Assembly (NCBI GenBank): GCA_023091665.1
Contig: JALJCQ010000009.1
Span: 1-64,000, forward strand
From: Pythium myriotylum
Taxonomy: Eukaryota; Oomycota; Peronosporomycetes; Pythiales; Pythiaceae
Length of the DNA: 64,000 nt
Reading direction: 5' to 3'
The notes beneath the pieces are model-generated. The model was not told the origin of the DNA and ran no database searches. It saw nothing but the letters and a program-made list of their open reading frames with translations. A program made the translations under genes and the position numbers. How positions within the stretch are numbered: the first letter of the stretch is position 1; each line of letters starts with the position of its first letter. This document shows, one piece after another, positions 22,278 through 59,408 of this stretch.

Positions 22278-22784
22278 ATGGCCCGCCTCGCTTCCGTCCT
22301 CGCCCTCGCCGCGTTCGCCGTCACCTCCACCGAGGCAGTCTCGTGCCCAGCGTTCGACAACATCACCGCCGCGAACAAGGCCAAGTGCGTCTCACTCGGC
22401 TGCCGATGGCTCGACTTCTACCCGCACTGTGCGCCACCGGCCCCAGTGACGGATGCGCCAGTGTTCACCCCTGCGCCGACGCCCAAGGCCACGCCGGTGC
22501 CGACCTCGTGTCCGGCTTTCGAGTATGTCAATGATTTCAACAAGAAGGCGTGCGCTGCGCTCGGCTGCCGATGGCTCGACTTCTACCCGCACTGTGCGCC
22601 ACCGGCTCCTGTGACGGATGCGCCGGTGTTCACCCCTGTGCCGACGCCCGCGGCCACGTCGGTGCCGACCTCGTGCCCGGATTTCAACGTCGTCAACGAT
22701 TACAATGTGAAGGCTTGCGCGGCGCTCGGCTGCCGCTGGAAAGACGTCTACCCCTACTGCGTCCCGGTCGCCGGTGCCAACTAA
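22278..22784 (+). CDS. Secreted cysteine-module protein A (3 modules)
   Basis: 168 residues, no intron. The ATG at 22278 gives a clean signal peptide (MARLASVLALAAFAVTSTEA), so the mature protein is secreted. It then has three modules at residues 23-51, 78-106 and 133-161. Each has four cysteines spaced x13, x4, x8 (C23, C37, C42, C51 in the first) and the pattern CPxF...GCRWxDxYPxC, which would suit two disulfides per module. Linkers are Pro/Thr/Val-rich (APPAPVTDAPVFTPAPTP) and probably extended and O-glycosylated. I know no named family with this spacing; a role at the cell wall or at the host interface is only a guess. From residue 33 of the coding sequence onward, the DNA is the start of the 7.5-kb duplicated block, and its 3' two-thirds recur in gene D. 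Confidence 0.88.
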   Translation: MARLASVLALAAFAVTSTEAVSCPAFDNITAANKAKCVSLGCRWLDFYPHCAPPAPVTDAPVFTPAPTPKATPVPTSCPAFEYVNDFNKKACAALGCRWLDFYPHCAPPAPVTDAPVFTPVPTPAATSVPTSCPDFNVVNDYNVKACAALGCRWKDVYPYCVPVAGAN

Positions 22785-23618
22785 GCAAATCGTTAGAGTG
22801 GACTTGCTCTGCAGAAGTAATTTTGAGAGTACATGTAATGTGATACGACATATCTTTTCGTGGACATTGCTCACCATTCCAACAGTTCGTATTCGTATAC
22901 GTAGATACGAGGTTGAATCCGTTTTCTACGTACTGCACTCGCAACGATTTATATATTGTCAGCGAGTCGGCGAAGGGATTCCTGCGAATGGTTTCTCACA
23001 GATACAATGTCATTGGCTGGGTACCCGAGCTACTCATGAGCCGAAGGTGCAACGACCAACCGTCGAGGCTAGTTTCGGCCGAGGGTACGACACCCACTAC
23101 TTTAACGACTCGGTCCGTCTCGACGGCGTCAACACGTCGCTGTGGAACGAACTACGGTGCCGCTTGTCATAGCGTTGTGGGCTTGTTTTCGTCATTGATA
23201 CGAACTAGATGCCGTCGCTTCTGGAGCACCACCGTCGTCCCAGGTACGGCACAAATCTTGTCGAGAGAGCTGTGAAGTTGCAGCTCACTTTCGCTTTTGT
23301 TTTTCACTGTGCAATGCGGGATACTGTACAAGCGCCATACGAAAGAGACGCGCAACGCGTCCTCAACAGCGCCCGCTTGTAAAGATTGTCGACCTCAATG
23401 ATTGATGTTTCCAGCATTCACCCTTTGTGAAGATTGTGTTTCAGGTGTAGCAATGCATTGTGCTCCAATCACGCACAATATATTGGTGTGGGGCACTCAC
23501 AGTACTGCGACTCTCAGTGATTCGACGAGTTCCCCACACTGTTTAGGCTCGCACTATAATAACATCTCCTAGCGACTGTAATCCATTCAAGACGAAAAGC
23601 GAGAACGGCGTCGAGAAT
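22785..23618. other. Intergenic after gene A, no gene recognised
   Basis: Frames of 100-130 codons occur (22,774-23,172 and 22,913-23,275) but match nothing I know. They are identical in the duplicate (30,362-31,196) only because the duplication is recent. Contains the 3' flank of gene A. Confidence 0.4.
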
Positions 23619-23778
23619 CTCAGCGTTGTTCTCGCCTTCTTCCGGCTCGAGAGCGTGCGTAGCGCCGGCACGAACAGTGGCTTGGTGTTCATGTTCAATC
23701 TTCTACACTCTGCTCATCTCAGCTGGTGTCTTCTCAATGCAGCTCAAGAAGGGTAGTGGTATTGGCCAACGGCTTGCC
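23619..23778 (+). pseudogene. SAC phosphatase 3'-end fragment, copy 1
   Basis: It matches the C-terminal coding part of the SAC pseudogene at 20,436-20,610 (ctcagcgttgttctcgcc through gtattggccaacggctt), with about 20 bases lost after ttcatgttcaa and several substitutions. It runs directly into the (AG)n tract. A duplicated scrap, not a gene. Confidence 0.85.
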
Positions 23779-23912
23779 AGAGAGAGAGAGAGAGAGAGAG
23801 AGAGAGAGAGAGAGAGAGAGAGAGAGAGAGAGAGAGAGAGAGAGAGAGAGAGAGAGAGAGAGAGAGAGAGAGAGAGAGAGAGAGAGAGAGAGAGAGAGAG
23901 AGAGAGAGAGAG
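23779..23912. repeat. (AG)67 microsatellite
   Basis: 134 bp of AG. The tract in the duplicate block (31,357-31,408) has only 26 units, which accounts for 82 of the 81-82 bases by which the two blocks differ. Confidence 0.95.
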
Positions 23913-23966
23913 GAATACCCGTTTATACAACTGAAGTAGCGAACGGAGGCATCGATCGTTTCAGAC

Positions 23967-24266
23967 TTAGTTCGAGTTAGGCAGTGGCACACAGTGCGGG
24001 TAGAAGTCGTTCCAGCGGCAGCCGAGCGACGCGCACTTGGCCTTGTTCTGTGCGTTGACTTTGGTGAAGGCCGGGCAAGAAACCTCTGCTTCTAACGAGC
24101 GGAGAGCCCGAGGAATGCAGTGCGGGTAGAAGTCGTTCCAACGGCAGCCCGAGTTAGCACAGGCGAGCTTGTTCGCATTGTTGACCTTGCCGAAGGTAGG
24201 ACAAGCTGCGTCCGTGGAGGCGACGGCAAGAGCGACAGCAGCAAATACGGCGGCAAGGCGTGCCAT
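23967..24266 (-). CDS. Secreted cysteine-module protein B (2 modules)
   Basis: 99 residues, minus strand. Signal peptide MARLAAVFAAVALAVASTDA, cut just before ACPTF. Two modules at 22-50 and 64-92, both with x13-x4-x8 cysteine spacing and GCRWNDFYPHC. They are joined by a short charged linker (IPRALRSLEAEVS), unlike the Pro/Thr linker of gene A. Initiator at 24,301-24,318. The gene lies after the (AG)n tract and is repeated without change as gene E in the second block. Confidence 0.85.
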   Translation of the reverse strand: MARLAAVFAAVALAVASTDAACPTFGKVNNANKLACANSGCRWNDFYPHCIPRALRSLEAEVSCPAFTKVNAQNKAKCASLGCRWNDFYPHCVPLPNSN

Positions 24267-57797: not shown

Positions 57798-58478
57798 TAC
57801 GTAACGTACCGCAGCAGATTATGAGCGACGTCAATTTATGAGCGCAAAAAGTGAGATTAGCCAATCAGCATCAATTATTCCTGAATAGGTATCAATGATT
57901 GGCGGAATGTTTGTGGCAGCAGTTTATGGCCCATTCCACCCAGAGCCACACGTTGCTTCGAGTCCAAGCGCCAGAGGAAGATGTGGACTCAGGAGGATTT
58001 CGAGGCGGCTGTAGCAGAGATGGATGCCAAGCCGCGCCAGCGCAAGACAGTCGACGTCAAGCGCCGCCTGCTGACAAACGACGACCTCGAAGCTTCCGAG
58101 TGCGAAGCTCATGCCTGGTGGGCTGGACCCCAGAAGCAGCTGACTTTCACCCTGTAGTTACTGAAACAATATATCTTTCGTTTGTTCCCACATGTTTTTT
58201 GTCCCGTCTATCACATAATGCTTCGAATAGTGATCTTCCGTGCGATTAGTGGCCCCGCCATAAACTGATGTCGGAAATAGCCGAATTTTCGACTTTCGAG
58301 GGCAGGTGTGGCAACTAACCTGCTTCACTAAGGGTTTGGATATCATCACGTTCTAGCCGCTTGTTTCAGCTATCCGGGCATGGTTTAACTGCCAAAATCT
58401 CTACCACCCGTGCAAAGTTACGGTCAAAAAGCTAAGGTACCCGATTTGCGCTCATAATCTGCTGCAGTACGTTATGTA
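57798..58478. mobile_element. Element with 30-bp inverted ends, unclassified
   Basis: 57,798-57,827 (tacgtaacgtaccgcagcag, attatgagcg) pairs with 58,449-58,478 at 28 of 30 positions. The 680-bp span looks like a small inverted-repeat DNA element. A 58-codon frame at 57,981-58,157 (MWTQEDFEAAVAEMDAKPRQ ... LLTNDDLEASECEAHAWWAG) has protein-like composition. I cannot name the family and did not find a target duplication. Confidence 0.5.
57981..58157 (+). CDS. Small unassigned ORF inside the inverted-repeat element
   Basis: 58 residues from ATG 57981 to TAG 58157, with charged, helix-like composition (EDFEAAVAEMDAKPRQRKTV, LLTNDDLEASE) and a Trp-Trp near the end. It could be the remainder of a longer transposon protein, since the frame is open a little further upstream (CFESKRQRK). 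Function unknown. Confidence 0.3.
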   Translation: MWTQEDFEAAVAEMDAKPRQRKTVDVKRRLLTNDDLEASECEAHAWWAGPQKQLTFTL

Positions 58479-58938
58479 GCCCTCCCTTGAACACTGCGTT
58501 TGATATCCATGCCAATATTGGCCGCGAGGTTGACCACTTGACTTAGGCGCGGAGGTAAGGCGTCCAAGTGCGAACTTGGATCCTATCCGCTATCCCTTGG
58601 GTTTCCCCATGGAGTGGCTGGGGGGGGGGGGGACGGATATCAGTAGCATTACATCTGCCCAGGATGAAGACACTGTCGCTCTCCACGTCGATCTGCCAGC
58701 CAGTCCTGTTTTGAGGAATTCGGCTTGGCTGTTTGTGGTGTTGCGGCCCGCGTAGGACACCCAAGACGAAAAAAGGCTCCATACGGACGACGTGGTGTCA
58801 CTCAGACGTATGCGTCGGTGTCAAGTTTGCGATATCAATTTCGCACTGAGAAAACAAATTAATAACATCCATCGTCTAAACGAAGCGATTCATGGTGGAT
58901 CTCGATGCTATTTGCTGTGTAAATGCCATGCAATGGAT
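58479..58938. other. Intergenic with a G13 tract
   Basis: G13 at 58,620-58,632. No supported gene. Confidence 0.45.
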
Positions 58939-59010
58939 ACACGGTCTATGGCGATGATGATGAAGGTGAAGTCTATTGAGCGCAATAAACGTACCCTAAC
59001 ACACGGTCTA
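58939..59010 (-). mobile_element. LINE copy l, about 50 bp, at the 3' end of gene L
   Basis: LINE tail on the minus strand (gttagggtacgtttattgcg, ctcaatagacttcacc, atcatcatc) between acacggtcta at 58,939-58,948 and again at 59,001-59,010 (the duplication runs on with one mismatch). It sits 17 bases after the stop of gene L, so it must have split that gene's 3' untranslated region. Confidence 0.8.
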
Positions 59011-59027
59011 CGGGTGCAATGCCTCCA

Positions 59028-59408
59028 CTAACGCATTGAATGCTCCTCGTGCTTGGGCACACAGTGCGGCGAGACGTCCTGCCACTGGCACCCGAGCGCC
59101 GCACACGCGATGATGTTGTAGTCGTTGACGTAGTCGAAGGGCGGACAGACGGTCGGCACGGGCGTCGGCTTGGCCGTCGTGACGACGGGCGCTGGCGCCG
59201 GTACCACCGCGGGCGGTGCGGCCTCGGTGCAGTACGGGTAGAAGTCGGAGACTCGGCAGCCGGCGACGGAGGTGCAGGCGGCCTTGTTGGCGGCCGTGAC
59301 TTGTTGGAAGATGGGGCACTTGGCGGCTTGCGTGGTGGGGGAGGAGGAGGCGAGGACGGCGATGAGGACGGTGGCGGTGGTGACGGAAGCGGATGCGATG
59401 CGGACCAT
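59028..59408 (-). CDS. Secreted cysteine-module protein L (2 modules)
   Basis: 126 residues from ATG 59408. Signal peptide MVRIASASVTTATVLIAVLA, probably cut after TTQA. Module 1 at 31-60 has an extra residue in the middle gap (x13-x5-x8, TSVAGCRVSDFYPYC); module 2 at 88-116 is x13-x4-x8 with GCQWQDVSPHC. The linker is Ala/Pro/Val-rich. The most divergent member. Hemmed in by LINE tail l just after its stop and LINE copy k 150 bp upstream of its ATG. Confidence 0.83.
   Translation of the reverse strand: MVRIASASVTTATVLIAVLASSSPTTQAAKCPIFQQVTAANKAACTSVAGCRVSDFYPYCTEAAPPAVVPAPAPVVTTAKPTPVPTVCPPFDYVNDYNIIACAALGCQWQDVSPHCVPKHEEHSMR

Follow-up and report, generated by a model that had tools for sequence, protein, structure and literature searches.

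A clustered family of secreted-looking, four-cysteine module proteins in Pythium myriotylum and its possible relation to the trefoil domain

What do the clustered, cysteine-rich repeat genes at the start of one contig of the oomycete Pythium myriotylum encode, and do their modules belong to a known domain? The stretch analysed here, called the window, comprises the initial 64 kb of the 3.5-Mb contig C9 (JALJCQ010000009.1), in a genome of 58.7 Mb and 55 contigs. The results support a real, multi-copy, rearranging and secreted-looking family; the observation in an initial annotation of this DNA is confirmed as a whole, and its interpretation, effectors or surface proteins, is partly supported. 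We tentatively propose that the genes encode secreted multivalent binders, perhaps lectin-like, with reduced trefoil modules. The trefoil relation itself is suggestive from the sequence comparisons: supported but not proved.

The twelve genes in the window run from 22278-22784 to 59028-59408, and each is an intact, single frame, open from its ATG, as annotated. They hold 34 modules in 20 distinct versions, two to five per gene, and the three proposed subtypes are visible. The GCRW subtype comprises genes a (22278-22784, plus strand; 168 residues, three modules), b (23967-24266, minus; 99 residues, two), c (25866-26345, minus; 159 residues, three), d (29585-30361, plus; 258 residues, five), e (31463-31762, minus; 99 residues, two), f (33362-33841, minus; 159 residues, three) and g (37081-37692, plus; 203 residues, four), together with the two divergent modules of gene l (59028-59408, minus; 126 residues). 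The SGCxPxD subtype is found in h (38708-39007, minus; 99 residues, two modules), i (43620-44045, minus; 141 residues, three) and j (45849-46268, plus; 139 residues, three), and WxYHC in k (53939-54301, minus; 120 residues, two). The window has 30 occurrences of the strict form of the module, CPxF-x10-C-x4-C-x8-C; 30 first-order Markov simulations produced none. The four remaining modules deviate in a single loop: x11 in the first loop of j3, x9 in the last loop of k1 and k2, and x5 in the middle loop of l1. Every module has four cysteines, and there are no others in any of the twelve proteins. Among the 16 distinct 29-residue modules, a set that excludes j3, k1, k2 and l1, no variation is seen at the four cysteines or at Pro2, Phe4, Gly19 and Pro27; the gene k modules, left out for their length, lack the final Pro. 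By eye the N-termini resemble signal peptides, with M[AV]R, a hydrophobic run and a STEA-like end, in line with the annotation, and no tail resembling a glycosylphosphatidylinositol (GPI) signal or a transmembrane segment was seen by eye. Proteins a, c, d, f, g, k and l each contain at least one Pro/Thr-rich linker of 24-27 residues, the linkers noted before, while those of b/e, h, i and j are just 8-13 residues long.

Seven of the twelve proteins were scanned with Pfam, and no model scored above its cut-off. The Trefoil model was listed below its cut-off for four of these (a, e, g and k; E 0.014-0.41). By its own account, the initial annotation would be overturned if the module strongly matched an already named domain; no such match was found, and the weak trefoil likeness, which exceeds controls, had not been considered. 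For the comparison, 19 modules were aligned with seven trefoil sequences, a set without acid alpha-glucosidase, TFF1, TFF3 and the second spasmolytic domain, and with six elicitin domains and 16 CBM1 modules from the same genome. The hhalign alignment with trefoils covers 25 columns at a probability of 63, and of 150 column shuffles of each kind, two that preserve the loops and none of the free ones equalled its score. The corresponding controls reached the elicitin score in 46 and 7, and the CBM1 score in 28 and 12, of 150. A trefoil hidden Markov model (HMM) gave the modules a mean of 11.0 bits, a score that 13 loop-preserving permutations and a single free one, out of 1000 each, also attained. 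For the elicitin HMM the loop-preserving, Gly-fixed and free permutations reached the real score 439, 282 and 123 times in 1000, and for CBM1 715, 496 and 785 times. A relation to elicitins was thereby rejected, the 7 of 150 free shuffles being its sole low value, as was the CBM1 relation, attractive by eye; the misfit to elicitin and CBEL that the annotation had claimed is borne out by these null or nearly null profile results. In the reverse test, with the family HMM against shuffled targets, z was 2.9 for trefoils, -0.2 for elicitins and 1.1 for CBM1. When the trefoil set was divided, the score was reached by 15 of 1000 permutations for the own-genome sequences and 72 for those from the PDB; without the maltase-glucoamylase domains that lack Cys V the number was 5, and with those two domains alone 79. 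Modules and trefoils have the pattern C-x3-G-C-x-W...P-[HFW]-C in common, and in the second trefoil of maltase-glucoamylase the place of Cys V is taken by Ala or Ile, exemplified by GCAW...VPHC.

The AlphaFold (AF2) model of a single module, with a confidence (pLDDT) of 86.1, has a helix (14-22) followed by two strands (25-27 and 34-36), and both modules in a two-module model of e show the same helix and hairpin elements. Foldseek searches of the PDB returned trefoil-bearing structures as four of the nine matches to the single module (TFF1, TFF3, porcine spasmolytic polypeptide and maltase-glucoamylase), and as three of the 22 matches to the two-module model. None of the 46 matches in BFVD reached E 0.001. 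PMC8125380 gives the trefoil disulfides as I-V, II-IV and III-VI; with I and V lost, two disulfides would be left, II-IV and III-VI. The module may be a unit of roughly 30 residues, helix plus hairpin, that keeps the equivalents of Cys II, III, IV and VI of a P-type trefoil, lacks I and V, and has a shortened last loop. As to the fold and the two disulfides about which the annotation had asked, the helix and hairpin are modelled with the confidence given above, and the C1-C3 and C2-C4 pairing stays a prediction. Trefoil factors (TFFs) are described in PMC7221086 as divalent lectins that bind GlcNAc-alpha-1,4-Gal via Asp/Asn and Trp and cross-link mucins. By analogy, two to five modules on short or Pro/Thr-rich linkers could let each putatively secreted molecule engage several surface or polysaccharide ligands simultaneously and cross-link them.

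Several results weigh against this proposal. All structural E-values from Foldseek, for the single- and two-module models alike, are non-significant, and VIA-align listed no trefoil, a result that does not exclude one. The best Pfam Trefoil scores, 15.7 bits (k) and 13.1 (e), fall short of the gathering cut-off of 21 bits; none of 19 single modules matched the model, and a genome search with it found one 1207-residue frame and one weak place, neither of them in the family. When Gly was also held fixed, 41 of 1000 permutations reached the real HMM score. In an independent-shuffle test 13 of 19 modules lay beyond the 95th percentile, although one shuffle outscored even the best module; the z of 9.8 from module shuffling is inflated, since related modules were shuffled independently, and column permutations are the fair control. 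As trefoils were tested because Pfam had hinted at them, their permutation p-value is somewhat optimistic; three families were compared. The modules also have four cysteines against the six of a trefoil. Lastly, we take the sugar-contacting Asp/Asn and Trp of TFFs to adjoin Cys II and VI, with which the present alignments agree. The residue before C1 is Ser or Ala in 24 of 34 modules, Asp in 5 and Asn in none; that before C4 is His, Tyr or Phe in all 34 and never Trp. With these contacts mostly replaced, the same ligand is not expected, and our working model is a multivalent binder with another ligand.

Apart from the family, the 1207-residue frame (L046, C1:2713498-2713794) holds two Pfam Trefoil domains above cut-off, the first of which has maltase-glucoamylase as its best PDB match.

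The number of modules per protein, and with it the valence of a putative binder, may be altered by unequal crossing-over between the repeats. Positions 22329-30171 are repeated at 29906-37667 (6311 bp at 99.57% identity and 1503 bp at 99.27%), a tandem duplication of roughly 7.5 kb; an AG repeat has 67 units in one of its copies and 26 in the other. Gene e is a duplicate of b with identical coding sequence and protein, and f is a duplicate of c. Gene d sits at the junction, which falls within its modules: of its 774 nt, the first 382 are identical to g and the last 408 to a. A start from g and an end from a is the pattern expected from an unequal crossover inside a module, and such an event probably joined the four-module and three-module genes into the five-module gene d; an assembly artefact seems unlikely. 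With the parent sequences still identical, gene d would be a clean case of module number altered by crossover within a repeat. Genes i and j form an inverted pair, 97.5% identical over 731 bp.

Genome searches with members e, i and k, and with a DNA pattern for DFYPxC, confine the family to one locus. The cluster holds 28 of the 29 genome-wide matches to the pattern (the reversed pattern has three); by eye there is no module at the 29th, on C21, or at weak protein matches on C12 and C30, and two further weak matches lie on C15 (E 2.6). A thirteenth gene, m, is found beyond the window (C9:73783-74142) and is a near-copy of l, with a synonymous rate (dS) of 0.044 and a non-synonymous rate (dN) of 0.011 over 119 aligned codons. 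A Gypsy-like element, read by eye, separates m from the cluster, which is flanked by Copia-, Gypsy- and Helitron-like genes.

All thirteen genes have, 50-88 bp upstream of the ATG, an element agreeing in at least 12 of 16 positions with a consensus of the initiator and flanking promoter region (INR+FPR). It stands at -57 in a, c, d and g, -53 in b, -50 in h, -64 in i and j, -76 in k and -88 in l; twelve of the thirteen reach 13 of 16, gene k being the weakest at 12. Of 5000 random 160-bp windows, 7.6% reach 12 and 1.9% reach 13 positions, a comparison in which the genes are not independent, several being recent copies. A 16-nt INR+FPR motif, with TCATTCT as the commonest INR, is described in PMC3599244, where such promoters are linked with high, regulated expression and infection functions in Phytophthora infestans. 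The coding sequences are under constraint among paralogues. The dN/dS ratio is 0.16-0.57 in 13 of 16 comparisons, which argues against decay; synonymous change is close to saturation in some pairs. Two other pairs are identical over the codons aligned, and the a/d value of 1.64 was set aside, as the alignment had paired non-corresponding modules. Over all pairs of the 16 distinct 29-codon modules, the mean proportions of synonymous and non-synonymous differences are 0.44 and 0.31.

A word search over 5.8 billion proteins yielded five candidates and no significant homologue, and a further one, with 8000 candidates scored, a single bacterial match at E 0.22, within the limits of word-based searching. 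The same search does find Phytophthora proteins of the type of CBEL, the oomycete cellulose-binding elicitor lectin, which are 29-51% identical to a CBEL-type protein of this genome, with nothing closer. Scans of genome and viral contigs gave 13 and 12 stretches matching the pattern, none confirmed, in data that may cover neither this genome nor near ones. Given these limits, and nothing above 51% even for the CBEL-type protein, a family without known homologue is a provisional description. Sequence searches of the PDB brought up antibody chains for the most part (best E 0.058 in one and, among the matches listed, the best 60 of 105, 0.02 in the other), and with NCBIfam the same seven proteins had no match above cut-off. 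A zf-C4pol match in gene g (E 4.7e-5, 24 bits, cut-off 28.9) was rejected and read as cysteine spacing in a repeat. The elicitin (PF00964), PcF/SCR, Kazal, PAN and CBM_1 (PF00734) models are not listed for these proteins even at E 10, subject to the HMMER filters, which drop weak matches; this agrees with the annotated misfit to elicitin, PcF/SCR74, Kazal and CBEL. Literature searches for trefoil with oomycete revealed no paper on the family among those listed, judged by title and opening of the abstract, and those for trefoil domain with Pythium and for DFYPHC found none; further listings held no matching title.

It is possible that the family is instead a lineage-specific set of apoplastic effectors or elicitors with a fold of its own, its trefoil likeness being the convergence of a small helix-hairpin. 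The failure to find homologues by a search that recovers CBEL-type proteins, the clustering among transposons, the promoters tied to infection functions (PMC3599244) and the non-significant structural E-values all fit such a family. The trefoil profile, however, beats the composition and spacing controls that the elicitin and CBM1 profiles do not, and there is no non-synonymous excess in the 13 paralogue pairs. A role as structural or adhesive proteins of the surface or wall, for example as glycoproteins of the cyst coat or wall, is unlikely. The modules would then be no more than disulfide knots, with O-glycans on the Pro/Thr linkers. This role would suit the long linkers, the comparable ones in elicitin-CBM1-PAN proteins of this genome and the restriction of cysteines to the modules, but not the short linkers of b/e, h, i and j or the apparent lack of a GPI-like or transmembrane tail.

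Two further readings have little in their favour. The first, that the modules are a reduced form of CBM1, the fungal cellulose-binding module, and related to CBEL, is suggested by eye, as CBM1 modules of this genome end in ...CQPWNPYYYQCRP, resembling ...GCRWNDFYPHCVP; in a further set of 200 shuffles each, however, 46 that kept the loops and 26 free ones attained the hhalign score, and with the counts given above and the HMM permutations this already disfavoured reading is very improbable. It is just as improbable that the modules are antimicrobial peptides of the defensin or scorpion-toxin (cysteine-stabilised alpha-beta) type. That fold is defined by C-x3-C in a helix and C-x-C in a strand, and has six or more cysteines; the modules have neither motif, four cysteines and a spacing of 13/4/8 with few variants, and one of 22 Foldseek matches to the two-module model is of this type. 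We retain the reduced-trefoil binder as the preferred, tentative reading. Its wider form, a dedicated secreted oomycete family that carries a four-cysteine trefoil in two to five copies, tunes valence by crossover and cross-links surfaces or glycans outside animals, is more doubtful.

Some neighbouring features were also noted. Identical 290-bp direct repeats (4443-4732 and 9566-9855) flank a Copia-type RVT_2 frame and look like the long terminal repeats of a recent insertion. Between genes j and k, identical 274-bp direct repeats (47194-47467 and 52419-52692) enclose Gypsy-type reverse transcriptase, integrase and chromo-like frames, the last just under cut-off. Pieces of a Helitron-like N-terminal region and a Pif1-like helicase lie at 11471-13276 and 2926-3564. 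Near the sole DFYPxC match outside the cluster, which is in another frame, is a secreted trypsin-like frame (L045), glucanase-inhibitor-like by eye. The genome also holds Elicitin, TGase_elicitor and CBM1/PAN genes (Pfam), and in L048, L050, L051, L053 and L069 elicitin-like or transglutaminase-elicitor domains are fused via long Pro/Thr linkers to CBM1-PAN repeats, with Pfam applied to segments of L048 and L050 alone.

The proposal gives a secreted-looking family, not assigned otherwise, a testable identity, a reduced trefoil with C1-C3 and C2-C4 pairs; if true, animals and oomycetes would both use trefoil-like multivalent binders at their mucous or wall surfaces, as convergent or as shared tools. 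Comparison with known systems shows where the likeness lies. Elicitins, small proteins that oomycetes secrete, share the C-x4-C but have six cysteines in a domain of 88 positions. The PcF/SCR74 proteins are likewise small, secreted and cysteine-rich, whereas the present family is built of modular repeats and has no match to their Pfam model in the seven proteins. CBM1 modules of CBEL-type proteins, in the same genome, are cysteine-rich units of about 30 residues on Pro/Thr linkers; they differ in spacing, show no profile similarity above controls and occur with PAN, a domain not listed for the family. The P-type trefoil (PF00088; TFF1-3, maltase-glucoamylase, sucrase-isomaltase) is, like the module as predicted, a small disulfide-held unit, with its own helix and hairpin elements to set beside the helix and two-strand hairpin of the model. 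Both have C-x4-C, Gly before the second of these cysteines, an aromatic residue two positions after it and, in the GCRW subtype, Pro two before the last cysteine. Some natural trefoils lack Cys V, and TFF2 has two domains, while the oomycete proteins carry two to five modules on linkers, with a last loop of x8 against x12 in the maltase-glucoamylase example.

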